From Lamprocystis purpurea DSM 4197 (GTDB taxonomy: Bacteria; Pseudomonadota; Gammaproteobacteria; Chromatiales; Chromatiaceae), in contig NZ_KB902515.1 of assembly GCF_000379525.1 (NCBI RefSeq), forward strand, positions 1-55,404: a stretch of DNA of 55,404 nt, written 5' to 3'. Below are positions 25,419-45,291 of the stretch, one piece after another. The translations under genes were made by a program, and so were the position numbers. How positions within the stretch are numbered: the stretch's first letter is position 1; every line of letters starts with the position of its first letter. Below the pieces are notes generated by a model. It had not been told where the DNA came from, did not search any database, and saw nothing but the letters and a program-made list of their open reading frames with translations.

Positions 25419-26681
25419 ATGGCCTCCTCCCCCGTCCGCCTGGCACTGTTACTGGTGACCCTGGTCATTCTGACGATTGGCTTGCTCAGCCTGCGACCGA
25501 CGGCGGTCGAACCAATCCGCATCGGAGCGGTACATGCCTTGTCCGGCGTCATGGCCGAGAGCGAACGCGGACTGGTCGATGCGGTGCAGCTTGCCGTGGA
25601 TGAGATCAACCGGGACGGCGGACTGCTGGAGCGACACGTGGAACTGATGGTTGCCGACAGCCGCTCGGATTGGACGGTGGCCGCGAACCAAGTCGAGCGG
25701 TTGATCCTGAAAGACGGTGTCAGTGCCCTATTCGGCTGCTGGACCTCGGCCTGCCGCCAGGCCGTCCGACCGGTAGTGGAAAAACACCATCACCTGCTGT
25801 TTTACCCGCTGCAATATGAGGGTCTGGAACAGTCGCCCAACATTGTTTACATGGGTTCGGCGCCCAACCAGCAGATCATCCCGGGCGCCCGCTGGGCGCT
25901 GGACCACTTCGGGCGCCGAATCTATCTGGTGGGTTCCGATTACGTCTTCCCGCGGACCGCCAACCAACTGATTCGCGACCTGGTCATTGCCGCGGATGGC
26001 GAAATTATCGCCGAACGCTATGTCCCGTTGGATGCGACCGCGTTCGCCGATATCGCCGCGGACATCCGCCGCCAGGCGCCGGACGCGGTACTGAACACCC
26101 TGAACGGTACGGCCAACCGACATTTTTTCGCCGCCTTGGCCGCCGCGGGGGCCGACGCGCTGCCGGTGGTTTCGTTCAGCATGGCCGAGCCGGAACTTCA
26201 GTCGATGCGGACCGCGCACGTCCACGCCGCGCATTACGCGGTCTGGGGCTATTTCCAGAGCCTGCCGCACGCGGCCAATCAGCGCTTCGTTGCCGATTTC
26301 AGACAGCGCTTCGGCCCCGAACGCGTCATCAGCGATCCGGTCGTGACCAGTTATGATGCCGTCAGACTCTGGGCCGCCGCGGTCCGCGCGGCCGGGACGC
26401 CCGATCCGGCACAGATCAATCGCTCCATCGGGCGCATGGGTGTGGATGGCCCGTCCGGCATCGTCGCGGTGGACGCCGCCACCCGTCACCTGTGGCGGCG
26501 GGTTTATGTGGGGCGGGCCCGGGCAGACGGGCAGTTCGAGGTCACCGAGATCTCCGAGGCACCCGTCCGCCCGGTGCCCTTTCCGCCCTACCGCGGCCGC
26601 GACGAATGGCTCGAACTGGTTCGTACACTGCTGACCGCGACAGATTCGCACCATCCCAAGGAAGCCGGGGAGGAGTGGTGA
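25419..26681 (+). CDS. UrtA/AmiC-like periplasmic substrate-binding protein
   Basis: The protein has 420 residues. An N-terminal hydrophobic helix (residues 6-26) acts as signal or anchor. The type I binding fold begins IRIGAVHALSGVMAESERG and includes VSALFGCWTSACRQAV, LLFYPLQYEGLEQSPNIVY and APNQQIIPGARWAL, all typical of urea/short-chain-amide receptors. No ABC permease or ATPase genes follow. Instead its stop overlaps the GTG of a GGDEF-EAL protein, so it is more likely the sensory half of a signalling pair than a transport component. The ligand is inferred only from family. Confidence 0.85.
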   Translation: MASSPVRLALLLVTLVILTIGLLSLRPTAVEPIRIGAVHALSGVMAESERGLVDAVQLAVDEINRDGGLLERHVELMVADSRSDWTVAANQVERLILKDGVSALFGCWTSACRQAVRPVVEKHHHLLFYPLQYEGLEQSPNIVYMGSAPNQQIIPGARWALDHFGRRIYLVGSDYVFPRTANQLIRDLVIAADGEIIAERYVPLDATAFADIAADIRRQAPDAVLNTLNGTANRHFFAALAAAGADALPVVSFSMAEPELQSMRTAHVHAAHYAVWGYFQSLPHAANQRFVADFRQRFGPERVISDPVVTSYDAVRLWAAAVRAAGTPDPAQINRSIGRMGVDGPSGIVAVDAATRHLWRRVYVGRARADGQFEVTEISEAPVRPVPFPPYRGRDEWLELVRTLLTATDSHHPKEAGEEW

Positions 26682-29600
26682 AACCGCTCAGCCTGCGGCT
26701 GCGTCTCGCCCTTGGCTTCCTGATCGTCGCCCTGCTCCCGCTGGCTGGTTTAGCCTGGTTTTACCTGTATACCTTTGAGCGTTCGCTCACCGCCGCGGCG
26801 TTGCAGAACATCGCCTCGATTGCCGACAAAAAATCCGACCAGATCAACAGTTACATCAGCGAACGCCTGGCCGATGCGCGCTCATTCGCCGGCCAGGATC
26901 AGATGCGCGCGGCCTTGCCGGCGCTCGCCGCGGACTTTCGCCGCGGCGGCCTCAGCGCAACCCGTGACACGGCCGCGCACTACCGCGTGCCATTCGCGAC
27001 ACTGAGCGAACAAGGCGAATATCATGATGTGCTGCTGATCGATGACCAGGGCAATGTCGTCTTCTCGCTGCGCGCCGAGGCCGATCTGGGTACCAACCTG
27101 CTGGATGGTCCTTATCGCAAGAGCGGGCTGGCCGCCGGCTTCCGCCAGGCCATGACCTTTCTGCACATCGATCTGAGCCGATTCGCACCCTACCCGCCGT
27201 CCAACAATGCGATTGCCGCCTTCATCGTCGCACCGCTGCTGGACCATGGCCGACCGATTGGCGCCTTGGCGCTCCAGGTCAATCTGGCCACCCTGATGCC
27301 GGTGGTGGCGGATCGCACGGGGCTCGGCCGCACCGGCGAAACGGTCCTGGCGGTGCAAGATGGGCACGGTGTCCGCTACACCATCCCGCTGGCGCGGATG
27401 CCAGGTGCGCCGTTCACCAACGTGATCCCGCTCGCGCAGGCCGCCGAACCCATGCGCCGAGCACTGACCGGAAATCAAGGTCGGGGGATGGTGCACGACT
27501 ATGCCGGTCGCGAGGTCGCCGCCAGTTGGCACTATTTGCCGGCCCTGGGCTGGGGGATGGTGGTCAAAATCGACACCGACGAGGTGCTGGCGCCCTTGCA
27601 CGCCACCCAACGGACGATCGTGCTGGGATTCGCGTTCTTCGTGCTGCTGTCGGCCGGCGCCGCCCATAGTCTCGGGCGTCGCTTCATGCGCACCGAGACC
27701 GCGCTCGGCCGGTCGCTTGAGCAGTTGCGCGATGCGCAACGCATCGCGCGGCTCGGCAGTTGGCGGCTCAACCTCAAGACCCGCCGACTGGATTGGTCGG
27801 ACGAGGCCTTCCGTATCTTCGAACTGGACCCGACCCGCTTCGGCGCCAATTACCAGACCTTTCTCGAGGCCGTCCATCCGGATGACCGGGAACGCGTCGA
27901 CCAGGCGTACCAAGCCTCGCTCACCAGCCGGAAACCTTATGCGATCTCCCATCGCCTGCTGTTTGCCGATGGTCGGATCAAGCATGTCCATGAGCACGGC
28001 GAAACCCTCTATGCTCCGGACGGCACCCCACGGGTCTCGCGCGGCACGGTACAGGACATCACCGAACTGCGCCGCGCCGAGGACGCCTTACAGCTCTATG
28101 CCAACATTTTCGAGCACAGCGGCGAGGCGATTCTGGTCACCGACCACGACAACCGCATCATTGCCATCAATCCGGCCTTCTCCCGGCAGACCGGCTATCG
28201 CCTGGAAGATGTCGCCGGAAAAAACCCCAGTCTGCTCTCGTCCGGCCGCACCCCGCCCGACACCTACGAGAACATGTGGACCGCACTCGCCGAGAGCGGC
28301 TATTGGCAGGGTGAACTCTGGGATCGTGACCGTCACGATGAAATCTATCCAAAATGGGCGGCCATCTCGGCGATCCGCGACGAGCACGGCGCGGTCACCC
28401 ACTATATCGCCAGCTTCACCGACATCAGCGAGCGCAAGGCCGCCGAGGAACGGATCGAGCACCTCGCGCACCACGACAGTCTCACTGGCCTCGTCAATCG
28501 CTACAATCTGGAAATCCGCCTGTCGCAAGCGCTGCTCTCGGCCCACCGCGAAGGCACCATGCTTGCGGTGTTGTTCATCGACCTCGACCGCTTCAAAGTG
28601 ATCAACGACACGCTGGGCCACCAGATCGGCGATCTGCTGCTGGTCGAGGTGGCACGCCGCCTGAAACTCTGTGTGCGGGAGAGTGACATCGTCGCCCGCC
28701 AGGGCGGTGACGAGTTCGTCGTCGTGCTGACCGGCCTGGAGAGCCCGGAAGGCGCCTCACCACTGGCCGCCAAGATCCTTCACGATCTCAACGCGCCCTA
28801 TCACATCAACGGCGATCGGCTCTACACCAGTCCGAGTATCGGGATCAGCATCTATCCGAACGACGGCACGGACGCCGGTATCCTGATGAAGAACGCCGAC
28901 ACCGCGATGTATCACGCCAAGGAACAGGGACGTAACAACCTGCAATATTTCACCGCCGCGCTCAACGCCGCGGCCGGTGAACGCCTGTTGCTGGAGCGCG
29001 AATTGCGGATCGCCATTGAGGAGGAACAATTCGAACTGCACTATCAGCCGCAAATGGCGGCCCAGTCCGACCGCGGCGCCCGGCCCTGCGCCATGGAGGC
29101 GCTGATCCGCTGGCGGCATCCGCGACGCGGTCTGGTCCAACCAGCCAAATTCATCCCCATCGCTGAAGAAACCGGATTGATCCAAACTATCGGGGACTGG
29201 GTACTGGACGAGGCGTGCCGCCGTTTCGCGCGGTGGAAGGCGGCTGATATCGGCCCCAGCCGCGTCGCGGTGAACGTATCGGCCCAACAGTTGAGCGACC
29301 CCGCCCTGGTCACCAAGGTGGCTGCCGTGCTGCAACGCTATGGCCTGCGGGACAACGAACTGGAGCTTGAAATCACCGAATCGGTAGCGATGAGCGATCC
29401 GGTCAGCGCCGGCAAGACGCTGCAAGCCTTGCGCAGCCTCGGAGTGACGCTGGCAATCGACGATTTCGGCACCGGCTACTCATCGCTGGCCTACCTGAAG
29501 CGCCTGCCGATCCAGGTGCTGAAACTCGACCGTGAGTTCGTGCGCGACATCGAAAGCGACGAGAACGACGCCGCGATCAGCGCCGCGACCCTCGCCCTGG

Positions 29601-29770
29601 CCCATGGTCTGGGTCTGATCGTGGTCGCCGAGGGCATCGAAACGGAAGGCCAGAGCCGGTTCCTGAAGGCGCATGGCTGTGACCTCTTGCAGGGGTATCT
29701 TTACGGCAGGCCGGCGCCCGCCGAAACCTGGACCGCGCGCTGGAGCCTGGACTGCAACAAGACCACTTAA
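26678..29770 (+). CDS. Membrane Cache-PAS-PAS-GGDEF-EAL cyclic-di-GMP protein
   Basis: The protein has 1030 residues. Order: membrane helix (about 8-30), periplasmic Cache-like sensor, second helix (about 310-335), PAS (from about 358), PAS (from about 475), GGDEF and EAL. The cyclase site GGDEF is intact near residue 675, with an RxxD inhibitory site (RESD) five residues before it. The phosphodiesterase domain keeps EALIRW, NVSAQQL, ITESVAM, DDFGTGYSSL and VVAEGIET, so both activities look possible. GTG at 26678 overlaps the binding-protein stop (GTGA) and follows GGGGAGGA; GTG at 26675 is an alternative. Periplasmic ligand binding by the upstream protein probably controls it. Confidence 0.9.
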   Translation: MKPLSLRLRLALGFLIVALLPLAGLAWFYLYTFERSLTAAALQNIASIADKKSDQINSYISERLADARSFAGQDQMRAALPALAADFRRGGLSATRDTAAHYRVPFATLSEQGEYHDVLLIDDQGNVVFSLRAEADLGTNLLDGPYRKSGLAAGFRQAMTFLHIDLSRFAPYPPSNNAIAAFIVAPLLDHGRPIGALALQVNLATLMPVVADRTGLGRTGETVLAVQDGHGVRYTIPLARMPGAPFTNVIPLAQAAEPMRRALTGNQGRGMVHDYAGREVAASWHYLPALGWGMVVKIDTDEVLAPLHATQRTIVLGFAFFVLLSAGAAHSLGRRFMRTETALGRSLEQLRDAQRIARLGSWRLNLKTRRLDWSDEAFRIFELDPTRFGANYQTFLEAVHPDDRERVDQAYQASLTSRKPYAISHRLLFADGRIKHVHEHGETLYAPDGTPRVSRGTVQDITELRRAEDALQLYANIFEHSGEAILVTDHDNRIIAINPAFSRQTGYRLEDVAGKNPSLLSSGRTPPDTYENMWTALAESGYWQGELWDRDRHDEIYPKWAAISAIRDEHGAVTHYIASFTDISERKAAEERIEHLAHHDSLTGLVNRYNLEIRLSQALLSAHREGTMLAVLFIDLDRFKVINDTLGHQIGDLLLVEVARRLKLCVRESDIVARQGGDEFVVVLTGLESPEGASPLAAKILHDLNAPYHINGDRLYTSPSIGISIYPNDGTDAGILMKNADTAMYHAKEQGRNNLQYFTAALNAAAGERLLLERELRIAIEEEQFELHYQPQMAAQSDRGARPCAMEALIRWRHPRRGLVQPAKFIPIAEETGLIQTIGDWVLDEACRRFARWKAADIGPSRVAVNVSAQQLSDPALVTKVAAVLQRYGLRDNELELEITESVAMSDPVSAGKTLQALRSLGVTLAIDDFGTGYSSLAYLKRLPIQVLKLDREFVRDIESDENDAAISAATLALAHGLGLIVVAEGIETEGQSRFLKAHGCDLLQGYLYGRPAPAETWTARWSLDCNKTT

Positions 29771-29810
29771 GCGATTTATTGTTACCCTCTCGACGAGCGG
29801 AGCAACTACC

Positions 29811-31679
29811 ATGTCCATATGCATCCCCTTGGTCAATGGTCCGAATCTACCCAATTGGTGGGATCCGAGTGTCGTCTTTCCCGCCCCTCGGGGATACTCC
29901 ACCGAGCTGGACCTTCCCTTCTGGCCGCAAGCCTATCGGCGCCCCTTCGGCAAAGGGACCGCCGAGGAGGCGATGTTCATGGCGTTTGGCCACATCGCCA
30001 AGGACAACCGATCTCTGTATCTCGCCTGGCATGTGCGTTTCGCGCCTGCCTCGAGCCCTGATCGAGACCGGCTCTATGTCGGGTTTACAGCGTCTGCAAC
30101 CTCGGCCCCGCTGCTGCTTGAGATCACCATCTACGCCGAGGACGCGAGTGTGGCGGCCGAGCCGGCCGCGCGGATTGTGGCTGGCACCCTGGATGCGCAG
30201 GGGCAGTTCCAGCCGCTCCCGCGGGTCCCCGCTTGGACAGAGCGTACGACCCGCGTCTGGCGGGCTCCCACCTCCAATCTGGCTCCAGCCGTCAATCTCT
30301 GGGCCGTGCAGATGCAGGTACCCCTGGTCGCCGACGCCGCTCCGGGCGAGGACGCGGGAATCGGCGTCGACGCCGACGGTAGCTTCCGGATGTGGTATTG
30401 CTTCGACATCTATACCCCGCTGAACCCGGCGGGCAGCTCAGCGGACCCAGCGGGCGGCATTCTCCGATTCGGTTTCCCGCAGGATGCCCGATTCTCAACC
30501 GATAGGGGACAGCGTATCTGGCCAGCCCCGTCACGCTATGCGGACTACCACCTGGGCAGCCAGAACCCGCCCTCCGACGTTGGCGGCTACGGCATCTCCC
30601 TGCACTGGCTCACCATGGGCACGCCCGGCATCCCGGCAAGCGAGGTCGATCCGGACCGGCCGAATACCCTGTTCGCCCGACCCACGAATCACAGCGGTGC
30701 GCAGTTGGCGGAGGGCCAGGTGCGGGCCCGCTTCGCCATTGCCAACTGGGGCTCGGTCTGCGATGCCGGAGCGCCGTGGACGGTGATTCGTGAGGATGAG
30801 GGCAACCGGGCGCCGCTACCCGACCGGGCAACGCCGGTTCCGGGCAAGGATATCCGCTTCGACTGGATCCTGCCGGCGGACCTGGCGGACGCGATCCGCC
30901 GCGGTATGCGGCCCCGGTATCAGTGCCTTTGCGTGGATCTGTCCGGCGCTGGTCTCACCTTCGTGAGTCCGACCGTCTATCGCAATATGGACATCCTGGG
31001 GGCGTCCAGCATCTCCCGCGAGGCCGAGATCAGCGTGGTCGGCCTCGCTCCGATCGTGTCGAAACACCGGGATGTCTACCTTGCGGTCGAAGTCTACAAC
31101 ATGCCGGAGCAGATCGATCCGGCGGCTCCTCAGCCCCGCGCGGCACTGCCGGTGACGCGCGGCCTGGCCGCGATTGCGAGGGCAAACGACGGCGAGCCCA
31201 GCGAACTGGAACAACAGGTCAATTCCCTCAATGCGTATGCCTATGACCAAGGCATCGTTCCCAACCCCGAAGTCGCGCAACTCATGATCGACACGGGCAT
31301 TCCGACCTATCGGGTGCATTGTTACCACGACACCGGGGAGCGGGAGGTCATCGACGGGCGGCGCTACGTCATCCTCGGCCTGCAGAGCAGCTTCGGCTAT
31401 CACTTGGTTCACGAAGGGGACGTCCTGGGGTGGAGTCACCGCCTGCGGGGCGCCATTCGCCTTGCCGACCGGTTCTACGTCCTGCCTGTGACCCATCATG
31501 GGGTCGCCAGGATCACCACCAGCATCCAGGCACTCGAACCCGGTGACATGGTCGAGCCCGACGAGCCGATCCAACCCTGGCCGGCACCCGCGTCCGCCTC
31601 CGGTAATCGCCGGTGGTGGTGGCTGTTGGCCTTGCTGTTCCTGGTCCTCGTGATCAATCGCTGCGGCATCGCGGGCTGA
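29811..31679 (+). CDS. Unrecognised 622-residue protein with C-terminal membrane anchor
   Basis: I do not recognise a family. There is no signal peptide. The body is rich in Pro, Trp and beta-type sequence, with segments such as GKGTAEEAMFMAFGHIAKD, MWYCFDIYTPLNPAG and LQSSFGYHLVHEGDVLGWSH. The last 20-25 residues (WWWLLALLFLVLVIN) form one helix followed by RCGIAG, so it looks tail-anchored with the bulk in the cytoplasm. The ATG at 29811 has GGAG upstream; the frame is open back into the EAL gene. It lies 40 nt after the cyclic-di-GMP gene and is probably in its operon. Confidence 0.7.
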   Translation: MSICIPLVNGPNLPNWWDPSVVFPAPRGYSTELDLPFWPQAYRRPFGKGTAEEAMFMAFGHIAKDNRSLYLAWHVRFAPASSPDRDRLYVGFTASATSAPLLLEITIYAEDASVAAEPAARIVAGTLDAQGQFQPLPRVPAWTERTTRVWRAPTSNLAPAVNLWAVQMQVPLVADAAPGEDAGIGVDADGSFRMWYCFDIYTPLNPAGSSADPAGGILRFGFPQDARFSTDRGQRIWPAPSRYADYHLGSQNPPSDVGGYGISLHWLTMGTPGIPASEVDPDRPNTLFARPTNHSGAQLAEGQVRARFAIANWGSVCDAGAPWTVIREDEGNRAPLPDRATPVPGKDIRFDWILPADLADAIRRGMRPRYQCLCVDLSGAGLTFVSPTVYRNMDILGASSISREAEISVVGLAPIVSKHRDVYLAVEVYNMPEQIDPAAPQPRAALPVTRGLAAIARANDGEPSELEQQVNSLNAYAYDQGIVPNPEVAQLMIDTGIPTYRVHCYHDTGEREVIDGRRYVILGLQSSFGYHLVHEGDVLGWSHRLRGAIRLADRFYVLPVTHHGVARITTSIQALEPGDMVEPDEPIQPWPAPASASGNRRWWWLLALLFLVLVINRCGIAG

Positions 31680-31716
31680 AAGGACATGGCGAGCGCTGTT
31701 ACTCGCGGTATCTCGT

Positions 31717-31809
31717 TATAGCCTTCGTACCTGATATCCAGACAGACCCTGGTGTAGGGGCGGGTTTGAAACCCGCCCCTACGTCCAGCGATCACGTTCG
31801 ACGGCTATA
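31717..31809. repeat. MITE-like repeat, copy 1 (core GTAGGGGCGGGTTT palindrome)
   Basis: The ends TATAGCC and GGCTATA belong to imperfect terminal inverted repeats of about 27 bp. The core at 31754-31782 is a near-perfect 29-bp palindrome (14-bp arms around one base). A second copy lies at 45071-45164 in the same orientation. The TA at each edge could be a duplicated TA target, as left by IS630/mariner-type elements. There is no coding capacity. It fills the gap between the convergent genes. Confidence 0.85.
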
Positions 31810-31881
31810 TCAGGGGGTTGATCGGACTCGCACGGACGCATCTCGTACCCGGTTCGACATTAACCGGGTACGGCCACGGCC

Positions 31882-33330
31882 TTAGAAAGCCACGACCACT
31901 TCCGCGCGCAGGAAATAGGACTCATCCCGACGGTTACGGGCGTAGAAGTCGCCTGGCGCCAGATACTCCGCGACCAGGTGTCCGGAGAGGTACTTGTTGA
32001 ACTTGGTCTTGACCCAGCCGGTGAACAAATGGCCACGGAAGTTACCATCGTGGCTGATGTTGTAGAATTGGTTGGCGGTACGCACGCTTTCCTGGTCGGC
32101 CCACAGGGCGTGGTAGTCCAGCAGCACTTCGGTGGTCGGATGGACCTTGGCCAGCCAGCCGACGTTCAAACGGATCAAGTTGGTTGCCTGGCCGACCCGG
32201 CTGTCCAGCGGCCATTGATAGATCATCAGCTCGCTCCACTGGGGCCAGCGGCCCCAGAGCGGATCGAATGACTCGTTGGTCTTGCTGTCCGGATCGTCAC
32301 CAGTGAGGTATTCCAGGTCCGCGTGCACGCGGTTGGCCAATGAGTCGTTGAAGGCATAGGTGAGACGCCCGTTGAAACCGAAGGCTGAGATGTTCTGGCG
32401 CGGTGCCCCGATGGTGACGCGGTTGGCACCCCACTCGCCCGCCGCCTCGGCCCTCAGGTTCCAGTTCGGCGTGAGCTTGGAGTCGATGCGGGCACCCACG
32501 GCATACACCTGCCCGTCGTCCGACGGCGAGGGAAAGGGATAGCCGTTGTTCACCCGCATGTTGTTCAGGGTGTAGTTCGGATCATTGCCCTTGTAGATGA
32601 AATAGCCATCCAGGTCGGTATCCTTGATCAGTGACTTGTTGCGGGCGTAGAGAATCCCGCCTTCCTCATACTGTTCGGTCTGGTCCTCGATCGTGCCGTT
32701 CAATGGCGTGGGGAAGCGGTCTGTGTTCGGGTAATTATTGATGTAGATCAGGTCGAAGGTGGTCTTGATCGCGTCCGCCGCGTAGGTCGCCCGCGCGGCG
32801 TCCATGTAGATGGTGCGCGATCCGTCGATCGGCGTGCCGTCCAGCACCAGCCAGCCGTTGCCGAGGACGAGATCCTGACGCCCGGCCTTGAGTGAGAGTC
32901 CGCTGTCGAAGATCTTCTTGAAGTCCAGGGTCAGCGAATCGAACAGGATACCGCCGCTATACCACTTCTCGAATCCGTACCCTGGCGCAAATGCGCTCTC
33001 CGGCGGCAGCGTGTAGTGGCGACCTTCCCACATCAACCGGGCGGCCAGCGCGAAATGCTCGCTGGGGGCATACTGACCCCAAGCGCGAAAGCGGTAGCGC
33101 TGGAAGACGCGGTTCGCCGTGGGGTTCTGGTTACCCGTGACGTTCCCCGTGGGCGTCAGGAGTTGGTCGTTGAGCCCGATATTCTCGATGTACTCCTCGC
33201 GCAGGCGCATATCGGCCCCCGCACTGAATGCACCCCAGGTTTGATCGGCGGTAGCCGGCGTGATCGCCATGGTGCCGAGTGCACCCAATGCGATGGCCGA
33301 GGCGGCGGCTCGGGTTGTATTAGAGTTCAT
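31882..33330 (-). CDS. Alginate-export-family outer-membrane porin
   Basis: The protein has 482 residues with a signal peptide cut near TPATA-DQ. The rest alternates short polar and aromatic strands (FQRYRFRAWGQYAP, LKAGRQDLVLGNGWL, HLVAEYLAPGDFYA) and ends with the aromatic residue Phe (EVVVAF), as outer-membrane barrels do. The pattern fits the AlgE-like alginate-export family, many members of which are general solute channels. The ATG at 33330 has AAGGTGGAAG before it and overlaps the 56-codon gene by 11 nt. It is the last gene of a symporter operon, so it likely admits the symporter substrate through the outer membrane. Confidence 0.8.
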   Translation of the reverse strand: MNSNTTRAAASAIALGALGTMAITPATADQTWGAFSAGADMRLREEYIENIGLNDQLLTPTGNVTGNQNPTANRVFQRYRFRAWGQYAPSEHFALAARLMWEGRHYTLPPESAFAPGYGFEKWYSGGILFDSLTLDFKKIFDSGLSLKAGRQDLVLGNGWLVLDGTPIDGSRTIYMDAARATYAADAIKTTFDLIYINNYPNTDRFPTPLNGTIEDQTEQYEEGGILYARNKSLIKDTDLDGYFIYKGNDPNYTLNNMRVNNGYPFPSPSDDGQVYAVGARIDSKLTPNWNLRAEAAGEWGANRVTIGAPRQNISAFGFNGRLTYAFNDSLANRVHADLEYLTGDDPDSKTNESFDPLWGRWPQWSELMIYQWPLDSRVGQATNLIRLNVGWLAKVHPTTEVLLDYHALWADQESVRTANQFYNISHDGNFRGHLFTGWVKTKFNKYLSGHLVAEYLAPGDFYARNRRDESYFLRAEVVVAF

Positions 33331-33513: not shown

Positions 33514-35367
33514 CTACAGGGTTGTGGCTTGGGGAGCCGCGTACTGGGGAAAACACCGACGCAGATGCTGCGGATCGGATGGCTTGGTAACAGCACTGAC
33601 CAGGATCAGGGTGAGCATCGCCAGCGGCAGCGCGATGATGATCGGGTCCACCGACGGCCAATTGGGATAATCCGCCAGGAGGCTGGTCTTGCCGCCGGTG
33701 ACCAGTTGCACCAGCCCGATGGCGCTCGCCTCCTTGGCCTTGACCAGCAGGAGCCAGAACAACGAGACCAGCATCCCCACCGTCATCGAGGCCAGAGCCC
33801 CAACACGGGTCGCCCGCCGCCAGAACAACCCGCCGACATAGGCCGGCAGGAAGGTGGCAGCACAGAGACCGAAGAAGATCGCGGTGAAACGGGCGATCAC
33901 ATACTCCTCGCGCACGTTGTAGCTGATGCTCACCGACACCAACAGACCGATCACGATGGCGATGCGCATGGCCAGTACACTCGGCTCAGTGCCGTGCTTA
34001 CCGGTGATGCGTTCATAAAGGTCGCGCCCGGCCGCGGTGCCGATCGTGTGGAACTGACTCGACATCGTACTCATGGCCGCCGCCAGCAGGGCCAGGAAAA
34101 ATACCAGCCCGAACCAACGCGGCAGGGCCGTGTTGATGAAGGTCGGAATGATCTGGTCGGCGTCACCCTTGGCATAGACCACCGTGGGTGCACGCCCGCT
34201 GACCAGATCCACGGGGGCGCCCTGGCCATCCTGAGCAGGTTGATGCGCGACAACGACCATCGGCGCCGTCGCCGGCTGATTGGTCTTGGGGTTGATGACG
34301 GGCTCCCAGCGTCCGGGTGATGTTTCCTTCATCAGCCCCACCAGTGCATGACCGCGTTCCGCGTCGATCTCCTTGACCACCTGACCCTTGAGCAGGGGTC
34401 CATGCTGGGCGAACCAGGCGTTGGACAGGCTGCCCACGGCGAAGGGGGTACCGGTCATGAAAAGGATGAAAACCGCGCCGATCGGCACGGCCCGATCCAA
34501 CTCGCGGCGGCTGCGCACCGTCATGAAACGCACCACCAACTGGGGTTGGGCCACGACGCCGATGCCGACACCCAGGATGATGGCCGTGATCACGGTCCAC
34601 CACAGGTCATAGCCGGTCGCCCCCCAGCCGAACTTCGGCATGGCGGTCCAGCCCTGGTGACCCATGGCCTGCAGGGGCGCCGGCACCAGGTCGGCCATCC
34701 CGGTCAGGTACTGGTGCGCCGCGCTGACTCCGCCCAGGCTCGTGTAGGCGAAGAGCAGCAGATAAGCCATGGCCAGGATCATGATGAGCCCCTGGAAAGT
34801 GTCAGTGTACATCACCGCCTTGAGCCCGCCGGGAATCACATAGGCCGCGGTGATCAGGGCGAACACCAGCAGCGCCACCTCGAAATCCACATCGAACTGG
34901 GTGGCGGCAAAGACGGCGCCGCCGGTCATCACCGCCGCCGAGTAAAGCGGCATGAAGACGAAGATCAGCAGCCCGGCGAAGATCTGAATCCCTTTGCTCT
35001 GGTAGCGCGCGCCCAGCAGTTCCGGGAAGGTGTGAGCGCCGAGGTGATGCCCCAGGCGCCGGGTCGGCTCACCGAGCAGGGTGAAGGCCAGCAGAATGCC
35101 CACCCCGATATTGAGAAAGGTCAGCCACAGCAGACTCATGCCGAACAGCCCGGCGACCCCGCCGAAACCCACGATCGCCGCGGTGGAGATGAAGGTGGCC
35201 CCGTAGGACACCGCCATAATGATCGGGTGGACCGAGCGCCCGCCGACCAGATAGTCCGCCCCGGTCCGTGTGCGCTGGTAGCCGAGCCAGCCCAGATAGA
35301 CCGTGGTCAGCAGATAACCCAGGATAACCACAATATCGACCCAACCCACCGCAGAATGCCCCGTCAT
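33514..35367 (-). CDS. Sodium:solute symporter (SSS family), copy 1
   Basis: The protein has 617 residues and about 13 membrane helices. The SSS signature is GGLKAVMYTDTFQGLIMI, and MSTMSSQFHTIGTAAGRDLY is in a later core helix. A hydrophilic insert of about 90 residues (from NAWFAQHGPLLKGQ to DADQIIPTF) is unusual for the family. The ATG at 35367 has GGGGG upstream; the open frame extends further but lacks homology to copy 2. It is close to identical with the gene at 35520-37358 over most of its length. The substrate is not evident; organic acids are common for this family. Confidence 0.88.
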   Translation of the reverse strand: MTGHSAVGWVDIVVILGYLLTTVYLGWLGYQRTRTGADYLVGGRSVHPIIMAVSYGATFISTAAIVGFGGVAGLFGMSLLWLTFLNIGVGILLAFTLLGEPTRRLGHHLGAHTFPELLGARYQSKGIQIFAGLLIFVFMPLYSAAVMTGGAVFAATQFDVDFEVALLVFALITAAYVIPGGLKAVMYTDTFQGLIMILAMAYLLLFAYTSLGGVSAAHQYLTGMADLVPAPLQAMGHQGWTAMPKFGWGATGYDLWWTVITAIILGVGIGVVAQPQLVVRFMTVRSRRELDRAVPIGAVFILFMTGTPFAVGSLSNAWFAQHGPLLKGQVVKEIDAERGHALVGLMKETSPGRWEPVINPKTNQPATAPMVVVAHQPAQDGQGAPVDLVSGRAPTVVYAKGDADQIIPTFINTALPRWFGLVFFLALLAAAMSTMSSQFHTIGTAAGRDLYERITGKHGTEPSVLAMRIAIVIGLLVSVSISYNVREEYVIARFTAIFFGLCAATFLPAYVGGLFWRRATRVGALASMTVGMLVSLFWLLLVKAKEASAIGLVQLVTGGKTSLLADYPNWPSVDPIIIALPLAMLTLILVSAVTKPSDPQHLRRCFPQYAAPQATTL

Positions 35368-35519
35368 GGGTGCCCCCGTTTGTTTATCGTGATGACTGCC
35401 CCAGCGGGCGGCGGAAGAATACCCCAGGTTCACCTCTCTTTTTCTAGATCCAGCGCAGTTAGATTGCAGATTTATGACGCGGCGAACAGACAAAGTGCCT
35501 GAAACCTGCCGGATCCGGG

Positions 35520-37358
35520 CTACCGACCTTGCTCCTGAGGGAAACACCGACGCAAATGCTGCGGATCGGAGGCCTTGGTCAAAACGCTGACCAACACCAG
35601 GGTCAGGAGCGACAGCGGCAGGGCGATGATGATCGGATCCACCGACGGCCAGTTGGGATAGTCCGCCAGGAGGCTGGTCTTGCCGCCGGTGACCAGTTGC
35701 ACCAACCCGATAGCGCTCGCCTCCTTGGCCTTGACCAGCAGCAGCCAGCACAGCGAGACCAGCATCCCCACCGTCATCGAGGCCAGGGCACCGGCACGGG
35801 TCGCCCGCCGCCAGAAGAGACCGCCGAGATAGGCCGGCAGGAAGCTCGCGGCACACAGGCCGAAGAAGATCGCGGTGAAGCGCGCGATCACATAGCCCTC
35901 GCGGACGTTGTAACTGATGCTGACGGCGACCAGCAGACCGAGCATGATGGCGATGCGCATCACCAGCACGCTGGGCTCGCTGCCGTGCTTGCCGGTAAGG
36001 CGCTCGTAGAGATCGCGCCCGGCAGCCGTTCCGATGGTGTGGAACTGGCTCGACATGGTACTCATGGCCGCCGCCAGCAGCGCCAGAAAGAACACCAGCC
36101 CGAACCAGCGCGGCAGGGCCGTGCTGATGAAGGTCGGGATGATCTGGTCGGCGTCACCCTTGGCATAGACCACCGCGGGCGCGCGCCCGCTGACCAGGTC
36201 CAGCGTGGCGCCGTGGACATCCTGGGCGGGTTCATGCGCGGCAACGACCATTGGCGCCGTCGCCGGCTGATTGGTCTTGGGGTTGATCACCGGCGCCCAG
36301 CGGCCGGGTGCCGTTTCTTCCATCAGCCCCACGAGCGCATGCCGGCGCTCCGCGTCGATCATCTTGACCACCTGCCCCTTGAGCAGCGGCCCGTGCTGGG
36401 CGAACCAGGCGTTGGACAGGCTGCCGACCAGGTAAGGCGTCCCCACCATCAGCAGGATGAAAATGGCGCCGATCGGCACCGCCCGATCCAGTTCGCGGCG
36501 ACTGCGCACGGTCATGAATCGCACCACCAACTGAGGCTGGGCCAGCACGCCGATACCGACACCCAGAATGATCGCCGTGACCACGGTCCACCACAGGTCG
36601 TAGCCGGCCGCCCCCCACCCGAACCTGGGCATGGCGGTCCAGCCCTGGTGACCCATGGCCTGCAAGGGCGCGGGCACCAGATCGGCCATCTCGGTCAGGT
36701 ACCGATGCGCCGGCTCGACCCCGCCCAGGCTCGCGTAGGTAAACCACAGTAGGTAGGCCATGGCCAGGATCATGATCAAACCCTGGAAGGTGTCGGTATA
36801 CATCACCGCCTTGAGCCCGCCGGGGATCACATAGGCCGCGGTGATCAGGGCGAACACCAGCAGGGCCACCTCGAACTCCACCCCGAACTGGGTGGCGGCA
36901 AAAACGGCGCCGCCGGTCATCACCGCCGCCGAATAGAGCGGCATGAACAGGACGATCAGCAGCCCGGCGAACACCTGGACACCCTTGCTCTGATAGCGCG
37001 CACCGAGCAGCTCCGGGAAGGTGTGCACGCCCAGCCGATGGCCCAGGCGCCGGGTCGGCTCCCCCAGCACGGTAAAGGCCAGCAGGATGCCGATGGCGAT
37101 GTTGACGAAGGTCAGCCACATCAGGCTCATGCCGAAGAGTCCGGCGACCCCGCCGAAACCGACGATGGCCGCGGTGGAGATGAAGGTGGCGCCATAGGAC
37201 ACCGCCATGATGATCGGGTGGACCGAGCGCCCGCCGACCAGATAGTCCGCCGCCGTCCGGGTGCGCCGATACCCGAGCCAGCCTAAATAGCCGGTGGTCA
37301 GCAGGTAGCCGATCACGACGACGATATCCACCCAATTGACTGCAGAATGTCCGACCAC
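35520..37358 (-). CDS. Sodium:solute symporter (SSS family), copy 2
   Basis: The protein has 612 residues, a tandem duplicate of the gene at 33514. It shares GGLKAVMYTDTFQGLIMI, the same hydrophilic insert and the same start region (VGHSAVNWVDIVV against TGHSAVGWVDIVV). GTG at 37358 is chosen: AAGGAG lies 6 nt before it and it lines up with the ATG of copy 1. Differences cluster in the insert (KMIDAERRHALVGLMEE against KEIDAERGHALVGLMKE). It is first in the operon, and the IS607-type element sits about 80 nt upstream, where its promoter would be expected. Confidence 0.88.
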   Translation of the reverse strand: MVGHSAVNWVDIVVVIGYLLTTGYLGWLGYRRTRTAADYLVGGRSVHPIIMAVSYGATFISTAAIVGFGGVAGLFGMSLMWLTFVNIAIGILLAFTVLGEPTRRLGHRLGVHTFPELLGARYQSKGVQVFAGLLIVLFMPLYSAAVMTGGAVFAATQFGVEFEVALLVFALITAAYVIPGGLKAVMYTDTFQGLIMILAMAYLLWFTYASLGGVEPAHRYLTEMADLVPAPLQAMGHQGWTAMPRFGWGAAGYDLWWTVVTAIILGVGIGVLAQPQLVVRFMTVRSRRELDRAVPIGAIFILLMVGTPYLVGSLSNAWFAQHGPLLKGQVVKMIDAERRHALVGLMEETAPGRWAPVINPKTNQPATAPMVVAAHEPAQDVHGATLDLVSGRAPAVVYAKGDADQIIPTFISTALPRWFGLVFFLALLAAAMSTMSSQFHTIGTAAGRDLYERLTGKHGSEPSVLVMRIAIMLGLLVAVSISYNVREGYVIARFTAIFFGLCAASFLPAYLGGLFWRRATRAGALASMTVGMLVSLCWLLLVKAKEASAIGLVQLVTGGKTSLLADYPNWPSVDPIIIALPLSLLTLVLVSVLTKASDPQHLRRCFPQEQGR

Positions 37359-37404
37359 GAGCGTCTCCTTGTAGGCTGTACCGCGCGTTTTGCCCGCCGA
37401 CATT

Positions 37405-37600
37405 GGCACGACGGGGCGCGCGGCAGAATACTGTTCCTAAAATTCTGAGCAAAGTTGCTCGGGGATGAAGTTAGGATTTATCCGCACTTGGTTGATAGGC
37501 ATTGCGGCCTGCAACTCAAGCCCCTTGACGCTCAGTTGCGCCGGAGAACGCGACAGCAGGACCCGTCGAACGTCCCGGTGCGGCATGTACCGCTTGATCT
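37405..37600 (-). ncRNA. Candidate guide (omega) RNA region at the tnpB 3' end
   Basis: In known TnpB elements the guide RNA overlaps the 3' end of tnpB and runs past the element edge. Here the last codons contain a hairpin, GAGCAA-CT-TTGCTC, just before the stop, close to the presumed element end. No direct sequence proof of transcription exists; the span is a guess from family layout. Confidence 0.35.
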
Positions 37601-38840
37601 CGGGGTCCGCGAGCCTTGCCAGCACATTCAGAGCCGCGTTATGGTCGGCCTGCAGAACGTCCCCGGTGACCCGGTAAAACTTGTCGCCACGGCGCGTGCC
37701 TTCCAGCAAGCCTGTGGTCGAGTCCATTTGCGACGTGTAGGAACCATTGACGAGCACATGCTCGGCATCACGCTGCTCACACACCGAGTCCAGGGCCTCG
37801 GCGAGCACGCCTTTCGCCCATGAACTCATGCGTCGGTTGTATCGCTTCCATTGCTGTTTTTGGGCAATGGGCGAGGTTAAATCTTCGGAGACCACCAGGG
37901 CCGCCTTATCCACGATAGAATGCGCCGATTGATAGGCGATCGTGCGCAAGCGCTGCTTGGTGCGGACCCTTCTCGCCTCAAGCTTTTTGCGACCCAGGTT
38001 ATTCGTTAGAATCCGGTCGGCCTTGGCTTGGTTGCCGCGCTTACGGTGCTTCTTTTCCAACGCATGAAGCTGGTTGCGCAGCTGACCCGTCTTGGCGCCC
38101 GTGTCGCTATACGCGGTCAGTACGTCACCAAAGGCCTGCCCATGCGCGGCGCCGTCGGAGTCCGTAAACGCTTCGGTGTAGCCCTTGTCGATCCCGAGCG
38201 CCTGAACCCCGTGCGGGCGTCCGGCCTCCTTGTCGACCGCGTAGTGGATTTCCGTGAAGCCGTCCTTCACGCAAACACGGAGGTTGCTGCCAGTCAGGTC
38301 GACGTTCTTGCCGTTGGACGTCGTAACCAACCGGATGTGATCGCCGTACTTCGGGGCGACGCGGATCGTGATCACCAGTTGGCCGTCGATCACCGCGGAC
38401 GCCTGTTTGTCGGAGCGGACAATGAACTGGTTGGCCGTGTGACTGACGCCGTGCCGGAAGTGCTTGCGCATCTGGCGATGGAGAAAGGGCTCGTCCATCC
38501 ACCGATCGGCTTTGAGTAGGGTGTAGAGCCGTGCCCGCTCGGCTGGGTCCGCGGTCTTGGCAGCGATGGCCTGTCGCACTTTGAGCTTCGCCGCGGCCTT
38601 GTACGTCAGGATATCGTTGACCACATCCTTGGTGGTTTCGTTTCGGATGGTGCCGTCAACCCCCAGTCCCGCATAGATGTCTCGGGCGCTGATGGCCTTA
38701 CGGATGTCGCTCGCGGACTTGCCGACAGTACCCAGCGCACCGTATCGCCGCCAAATATCGGCGCGCAGGTAGCCTATGGCTTGGCAGATGGGCCCCAATG
38801 CGCCGGGGACGTTCGCTTGGAGGGTACGCGTGACTTTCAT
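37437..38840 (-). CDS. tnpB: TnpB-family RNA-guided nuclease, zinc-finger cysteines missing
   Basis: The protein has 467 residues. The RuvC-type active site is visible: Asp in GIDKGYTEAF, Glu in LVVSEDLTSPIA and Asp in VLQADHNAALNVLARL. Between the last two, where most TnpB proteins have CxxC...CxxC, this one reads YTSQMDSTTGLLEG and FYRVTGDVLQ with no cysteine. A tail of about 60 residues follows the last motif. The family cuts DNA using a guide RNA made from the element end, and helps the element persist. The gene is intact and overlaps tnpA by 4 nt. Confidence 0.87.
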   Translation of the reverse strand: MKVTRTLQANVPGALGPICQAIGYLRADIWRRYGALGTVGKSASDIRKAISARDIYAGLGVDGTIRNETTKDVVNDILTYKAAAKLKVRQAIAAKTADPAERARLYTLLKADRWMDEPFLHRQMRKHFRHGVSHTANQFIVRSDKQASAVIDGQLVITIRVAPKYGDHIRLVTTSNGKNVDLTGSNLRVCVKDGFTEIHYAVDKEAGRPHGVQALGIDKGYTEAFTDSDGAAHGQAFGDVLTAYSDTGAKTGQLRNQLHALEKKHRKRGNQAKADRILTNNLGRKKLEARRVRTKQRLRTIAYQSAHSIVDKAALVVSEDLTSPIAQKQQWKRYNRRMSSWAKGVLAEALDSVCEQRDAEHVLVNGSYTSQMDSTTGLLEGTRRGDKFYRVTGDVLQADHNAALNVLARLADPEIKRYMPHRDVRRVLLSRSPAQLSVKGLELQAAMPINQVRINPNFIPEQLCSEF

Positions 38841-45070: not shown

Positions 45071-45164
45071 TATAGCCTTCATACCTGATATCCGGACAGA
45101 GCCCTGGTGTAGGGGCGGGTTTGAAACCCGCCCCTACGTCCGGTTATCACGTCCGATGGCTATA
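45071..45164. repeat. MITE-like repeat, copy 2
   Basis: Same element and orientation as 31717-31809, with TATAGCC/GGCTATA ends and the GTAGGGGCGGGTTT palindrome. It lies immediately downstream of the tRNA terminator. Confidence 0.85.
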
Positions 45165-45216: not shown

Positions 45217-45291
45217 TGGTGGGCGCGGCAGGGATCGAACCTGCGACCCTCCCCGTGTGAAGGGGATGCTCTCCCGCTGAGCTACGCGCCC
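45217..45291 (-). tRNA. tRNA-Val (anticodon CAC), CCA encoded
   Basis: The 75-nt gene folds as a cloverleaf: acceptor stem GGGCGCG/CGCGCCC, D arm GCTC-AGCGGGA-GAGC, anticodon stem TCCCC/GGGGA with loop TTCACAC, and T arm GCAGG-TTCGATC-CCTGC. The anticodon CAC reads GUG. The terminal CCA is in the DNA. Confidence 0.95.

Follow-up and report, generated by a model that had tools for sequence, protein, structure and literature searches.

The stretch of DNA analysed here, hereafter the window, comprises 55,404 nucleotides of the 6.9-Mb genome of Lamprocystis purpurea DSM 4197 (contig NZ_KB902515.1, positions 1 to 55,404) and carries three consecutive open reading frames on its forward strand. Gene 1 (25419-26681) encodes a UrtA-like periplasmic binding protein of 420 residues; gene 2 (26678-29770), with a GTG start, encodes a membrane receptor of 1030 residues with a dCache_1-PAS-PAS-GGDEF-EAL architecture; gene 3 (29811-31679), with an ATG start, encodes an orphan of 622 residues with a C-terminal membrane-type helix. 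The first two genes recur together as a pair, whose input half is constant and whose output varies. The two probably constitute a two-protein receptor, in which a urea-type binding protein controls a dCache GGDEF-EAL enzyme and to which gene 3 is unrelated.

An earlier, sequence-only reading had proposed that the three genes form a sensor, a second-messenger switch and an output. The frame positions and spacings that it gave were borne out: the stop of gene 1 and the start of gene 2 overlap by four nucleotides, GTGA, with the receptor's GTG at 26678, and the ATG of gene 3 lies 40 nucleotides past the receptor stop. The sensor and the switch also stand, given the further pairs described below, whereas gene 3 as the output does not; the three open reading frames are real but do not make up a single system.

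The binding protein and receptor recur as a pair

Eighteen further cases of the pair with open frames were found in Beta- and Gammaproteobacteria, giving 19 with the window; two of these come from one genome (G915), and one genome, G006, was counted once. The frames are open in all 19, and a start codon giving the four-nucleotide overlap with the previous gene is available in 14; other overlapping starts are present in loci L037, L043 and L179, and none in L175 or L176. In a sister genome the two genes are conserved together (binding protein, 89%; receptor, 95.5%).

Three sets of binding-protein relatives were compared. In the first (n=32), a dCache receptor accompanied the binding protein at seven loci (decayed at L010 and L012), a UrtB-like gene at 24, neither at one, where no UrtB lies within the stretch covered, and both at none. 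In the second, the best 80 of 443 named relatives, all eight loci with at least 51% identity had a dCache receptor downstream, as against none of the 72 others, when the dCache domain of the window was used as query. A class-wide search of 369 genomes yielded 13 places in 12 genomes, the window included; the other 12 carried a dCache receptor (seven), a GGDEF-EAL protein without a dCache match (one) or UrtB (four, namely L011 and three others). UrtB-like labels were assigned by means of three query proteins, themselves confirmed against NCBIfam. None of the binding proteins of the pairs had a UrtB-like neighbour in the stretches tested. Pairwise identities of the binding protein and of the dCache domain were strongly correlated (rho 0.947, 0 of 5000 permutations).

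The input is retained while the output changes

Across the 19 pairs, the receptor ended in GGDEF-EAL in eight, GGDEF in one (Halorhodospira), a histidine or hybrid kinase in seven, a chemoreceptor (MCP) in two and a class III cyclase in one. Outputs were assigned by Pfam, except for L037, L050, L052 and L055, which were assigned by tblastn with the domains of the window's receptor. In a tree of 51 binding proteins, which covers the first 12 receptor-linked rows and came with a long-branch warning, those 12 fell into one group (support 84/81), with a core of ten (100/99), apart from the UrtB-linked UrtA proteins. The hybrid kinase pair L056 grouped inside this core with two Thiobacillus GGDEF-EAL pairs, suggesting that outputs were swapped while the input was retained.

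From this we put forward a broader proposal, on which we are evenly divided: that the pairs make up a modular family of extracellular urea receptors, whose co-inherited input is joined to c-di-GMP (cyclic di-GMP) enzymes, kinases, chemoreceptors or class III cyclases and sets lifestyle, with the pocket re-tuned in the chemoreceptor branch. With one input attached to a range of outputs, such a family would be a natural kit for studying binding-protein signalling through dCache domains.

Related arrangements were seen outside the pairs. In a Treponema metagenome-assembled genome (MAG), a UrtA-type protein, lipoprotein-like by eye, overlaps a Reg_prop-Y_Y_Y-class III cyclase protein (L061 3828-8110). 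Giant proteins of about 1520 residues with two Peripla_BP_5 domains and HEAT repeats are encoded in deltaproteobacterial and Aminicenantes MAGs (L058 2446-6999; L060 3512-8104). In Vibrio, the frame of a more distant binding protein with another pocket overlaps that of a GGDEF protein with a sub-threshold HAMP match (L113 6929-9866); L115 is likewise listed, L113 being the one scanned.

The binding pocket points to urea

The window's binding protein matched Peripla_BP_5 with an E-value of 1.7e-130 and, among solved chains, scored 333 bits with 8tg1 and 265-269 bits with UrtA, compared with only 175 bits for AmiC. In Prochlorococcus UrtA, nine residues line the urea, eight of them are conserved, and mutating the eight lowers or abolishes urea binding, according to the excerpt of PMC10392092. 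The eight key positions are W120, S122, Y141, Q144, E146, Y190, N246 and S274, and the ninth is F192. None of the nine differed in the window protein or in any of the 11 further receptor-linked rows of the tree; the eight were retained in 16 of the 19 receptor-linked binding proteins, four of the seven further pairs among them, although in L170 the ninth position, F192, is Y. In L164, Y190 is replaced by T. Both chemoreceptor-linked proteins carry Q144A, F192W and N246A, and the substitutions common to the two hint at another ligand for chemotaxis; the UrtA-like protein and dCache chemoreceptor lie at L173 1960-4056 and L178 1893-3992. Some UrtB-linked rows differ in the pocket as well (L014/L046, which are the same place, and L023).

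Read out in order with F192 in seventh place, the pocket is Y S Y P E Y Y V T in AmiC (1pea) and W S Y Q E Y F N S in the window protein, so that AmiC differs at four of the eight key positions, with Y, P, V and T at W120, Q144, N246 and S274. Since the eight urea residues are kept in 16 of 19 proteins while AmiC changes four, the ligand is likely to be urea and not an amide. The sequence-only reading had described the protein as UrtA/AmiC-like and amide-receptor-like; the UrtA likeness held, and pocket and bit scores are of the urea type. An AmiC-type amide receptor was rejected on the pocket residues, and no AmiR antiterminator partner adjoins the binding protein, whose neighbours are an iron-type alcohol dehydrogenase (Fe-ADH) gene and the dCache receptor gene.

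The same genome encodes a transporter UrtA on another contig (567.9 bits, above the NCBIfam cut-off), with UrtB, UrtC and UrtE behind it, as well as urease alpha; urea is therefore a likely nutrient. The window protein is 37-38% identical to this UrtA. No urtBCDE genes were found among the neighbours of the window's binding protein, and the neighbours scanned (Fe-ADH and others upstream, SSF symporters downstream) include no ABC (ATP-binding cassette) transporter genes, in keeping with the earlier statement that the locus lacks a permease and an ATPase. Taken together with the pocket, this makes urea, or a small molecule much like it, our best guess as to what the window protein binds.

A hydrophobic helix was recognised by eye at the N-terminus of the window protein and may keep it at the membrane. 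Receptor-linked binding proteins tended, as judged by eye, to have such a membrane-like helix rather than a cleavable signal. An A-x-A motif before the core was present in 6 of 19 receptor-linked proteins versus 15 of 22 others, by a crude regular expression that misplaced the core in at least five rows (the window, L057, L043, L003 and L019) and found none in two (L033 and L169).

The receptor and a proposed mechanism

Pfam returned the architecture that had been read from the sequence, Cache-PAS-PAS-GGDEF-EAL, with a dCache_1 match of 54.3 bits against a cut-off of 45. The motifs, whose meanings we take to be the customary ones, are unaltered: R-ESD at the I-site, GGDEF, EAL and, in loop 6, DDFGTGYSS. 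By these motifs both catalytic sites are predicted to be intact, as had been supposed along with the inhibitory site. The sensor region (26756-27640, forward strand), which extends from the end of membrane helix 1 to the start of helix 2 with both helices placed by eye, is the proposed docking site. Its model had a predicted local distance difference test (pLDDT) score of 91 and, in a fold search, matched solved dCache domains, DvhD best. Residues that do not vary among 12 aligned dCache domains of the pairs include Y172, P174 and S175.

We reasoned that the UrtA-like protein, which is probably attached to the inner membrane on its outer face, would close on urea or a near-identical molecule, and that the closed protein would then dock on the dCache domain of the receptor. 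Docking would alter the dCache dimer, and the signal would pass via the membrane helix and the PAS linkers to shift the balance between GGDEF, for c-di-GMP synthesis, and EAL, for its breakdown. In our best reading, drawn by analogy, extracellular urea would tip the receptor's balance between making c-di-GMP and breaking it down, much as polyamines act via NspS-MbaA. The sequences themselves show the pair, its repeated occurrence, the exchanged outputs, the retained pocket and the lack of gene 3 in the other pairs; that urea is the ligand, that the two proteins dock physically and in which direction c-di-GMP would respond are inferred. The excerpt of PMC9602780 calls the activation of receptors by binding proteins general and widespread.

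When a dCache profile based on this sensor region was searched against 142 genomes, 63 matches reached E<=1e-20, and for 30 of these there were loci for inspection. The six matches below 1e-104 all lie beside the same type of binding protein (truncated in G004), and the eighth and ninth are preceded by a Peripla_BP_4 protein, as though the group served as a docking platform. The remaining 21 loci comprise one decayed pair (L157) and 20 in which these binding proteins found no match. Related dCache receptors immediately following a different kind of binding protein were seen at L137 and L138 (Peripla_BP_4, by Pfam) and at L156 and L158 (PstS-like, by eye only).

Alternative readings

Several observations weigh against the urea receptor proposed here. 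Its distribution is patchy: no close copy was seen in five of the seven further genomes from the genus, and the copies in G004 and G030 are broken, the binding protein and receptor of G004 lying in pieces in different frames. At L165/L177, the gene immediately upstream of a near relative of the binding protein encodes a GGDEF-EAL protein that gave no dCache match. Loop 6 is altered to DDFGTGHSS in the GGDEF-EAL receptor of L037. The correlation between binding-protein and dCache identities is also expected from plain joint inheritance of neighbours, and the anchoring claim draws on the crude A-x-A pattern. To these are added the altered pockets, the UrtA cut-off and the seventh dCache match, each of which is taken up below with the reading that it favours.

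Decayed copies of the pair, with frame changes and a stop, were seen at L041 9695-12651, L039 9300-12258 and L157 (genomes G004, G030 and G020), suggesting that the pair was lost in some lineages.

A binding-protein-dependent receptor whose UrtA-like pocket holds something other than urea, such as an amide or a guanidine-like molecule, is the alternative that survives best, although we think it unlikely. Three of the 19 receptor-linked pockets are altered, so that the family is not uniformly urea-binding. The window protein scores 395.7 bits, below the NCBIfam UrtA cut-off of 492.75 (TIGR03407), which the genome's transporter UrtA passes, and AmiC, a relative, binds amides. The nine unchanged positions in the window protein and 11 other rows of the tree speak for urea nonetheless, as do four randomly selected UrtA homologues, all of which bound urea in the excerpt of PMC10392092.

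It is improbable that the dCache domain binds a small ligand of its own directly and that the binding protein is a passenger, or a helper of another transporter. Many dCache domains do bind ligands themselves, with examples for autoinducer-2 (AI-2) in the excerpt of PMC7584622, and ligand-bound dCache domains are among the solved structures matched. The seventh match of the dCache search, L136 (E 2e-81), has no binding protein of this type within 1.5 kb. However, the pair persists through output swaps with the four-nucleotide overlap usually possible, its binding proteins have no UrtB-like neighbour in the stretches tested, and the two dCache relatives ranking next after L136 stand behind a Peripla_BP_4 protein.

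Comparison with described systems

The class of mechanism is known; as far as searched, no description exists of this family of binding proteins in such a role, of the likely ligand or of the modular reuse with different outputs. In NspS-MbaA of Vibrio cholerae, NspS is a polyamine-binding protein of another family, PotD-like. There, the binding protein controls a bifunctional GGDEF-EAL enzyme, with its ligand state setting c-di-GMP synthesis or breakdown (excerpt of PMC8967002). As in that system, the binding-protein gene of the window accompanies a membrane GGDEF-EAL receptor gene, which it overlaps, with no transporter adjacent; the difference is that the window uses a UrtA-type protein, and that the same input elsewhere drives kinases, chemoreceptors and a class III cyclase.

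AmiC, from the amidase operon, belongs to the same family as the window protein, although their pockets differ as described above. It is a binding protein used for regulation, with AmiR as partner; the corresponding partner in the window would be the dCache receptor. LuxP-LuxQ resembles the window pair in that a binding protein switches a membrane receptor, but LuxP is homologous to ribose-binding proteins and senses AI-2, and LuxQ is a kinase (excerpt of PMC7584622). No LuxQ entry was among the 50 fold-search matches listed for the window's dCache domain. With the transporter UrtA, the window protein shares its family and all nine pocket positions (excerpt of PMC10392092), whereas it falls into a separate group in the tree and adjoins a receptor instead of UrtB.

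Among the literature matches listed, none was found to describe a pairing of a UrtA-type protein with a receptor of the GGDEF, kinase or dCache kind. The nearest case is the nif cluster of Dechloromonas, in which a UrtA gene stands two entries after a histidine kinase gene in the excerpt of PMC2907700; the word urea is absent from the excerpt of a review of c-di-GMP sensory systems (PMC8846402). If the broader proposal is true, urea outside the cell sets lifestyle decisions. The pocket residues allow a specific ligand to be named, which simple binding assays could check. To our knowledge, few outside signals have been named for c-di-GMP receptors.

Gene 3 occupies a variable slot

The product of gene 3 had been described as belonging to no recognised family, and this was upheld: it had no Pfam match at E<=10 and none in NCBIfam, PHROGs or PADLOC, and one chance-level match (E 2) in the PDB. 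A single-sequence AlphaFold model had a mean pLDDT of 32, with confidence only around the C-terminal helix at residues 600-619.

In two close relatives of the same genus, G006 and G004, the neighbourhood is kept, with Fer2, MoCoBD, XdhC, MobA-like and Fe-ADH genes, the binding protein, the receptor, a porin-like gene (by eye) and SSF symporters. Similarity to the window is lost at 29744, in the last receptor codons, and picks up again at 31886, close to where the porin-like gene ends; neither relative shares the intervening segment of the window, 29745-31885. The slot is filled there by an AAA ATPase and an HNH-type protein on the opposite strand, which correspond to Septu PtuA/PtuB (L036 13929-16264, E 1.3e-157 and 2.4e-103 in G006; L041 12697-14890, E 1.3e-131 and 1.3e-99 in G004, where the PtuA frame stops early). 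What the variable site contains is thus a defence locus in the two relatives but an orphan gene in the window.

Gene 3 was searched for in 142 relatives, 398 genomes of the phylum and 210 of the order, sets that overlap, and also in GTDB contigs (by peptide patterns), viral contigs, plasmids and phages. Far from being widespread without the other two genes, it was found only in the window and as a frame-broken remnant of 289 bp elsewhere in G004, away from any such pair (37 differences, at codon positions 14/9/14). Nor did the proposed three-gene order recur: gene 3 was near none of the 18 other pairs as far as their loci reach (179 loci searched), 16 of which have at least 1 kb behind the receptor, with 37 bases at L043 and 425 at L051. 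Weak phylum-level matches were judged to be due to chance: L047 and L048 overlie, by eye, GntR-like regulator and acyl-CoA dehydrogenase-like frames, and L049 has three stops within the stretch. A mobile, phage or plasmid origin is unsupported, with no match in the phage, plasmid and viral collections.

That the three genes form one unit with gene 3 as its output is highly improbable, and as a conserved unit they are refuted: same strand, 40-nucleotide spacing, similar GC content (0.656 vs 0.638; third codon positions, 0.787 vs 0.791) and the lack of a terminator-like site between genes 2 and 3 (a scan was no better than shuffles) are outweighed by the absence of gene 3 from the other pairs, by Septu in its slot in both syntenic relatives and by a sole relative that is a broken fragment. 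Gene 3 looks like an unrelated, lineage-specific orphan in a variable slot, outside the conserved pair.

Other features of the window

Directly behind gene 3 lies a copy (31717-31809) of a palindromic interspersed repeat of about 93 bp with the core GTAGGGGCGGGTTTGAAACCCGCCCCTAC. A second copy is at 45071-45164, and the genome holds 42 long matches, window copies included, as counted from match rows; one copy adjoins a tRNA at 45220-45291 on the reverse strand. Two adjacent SSF symporter frames are at 33514-35856 and 35520-37409 on the reverse strand, where the listed open reading frames overlap, and extra rearranged pieces of them occur in G004. At 37437-38840 on the reverse strand is a TnpB-like frame, with a Cas12f1-like_TNB match slightly under the Pfam cut-off (23.5 vs 26.3).

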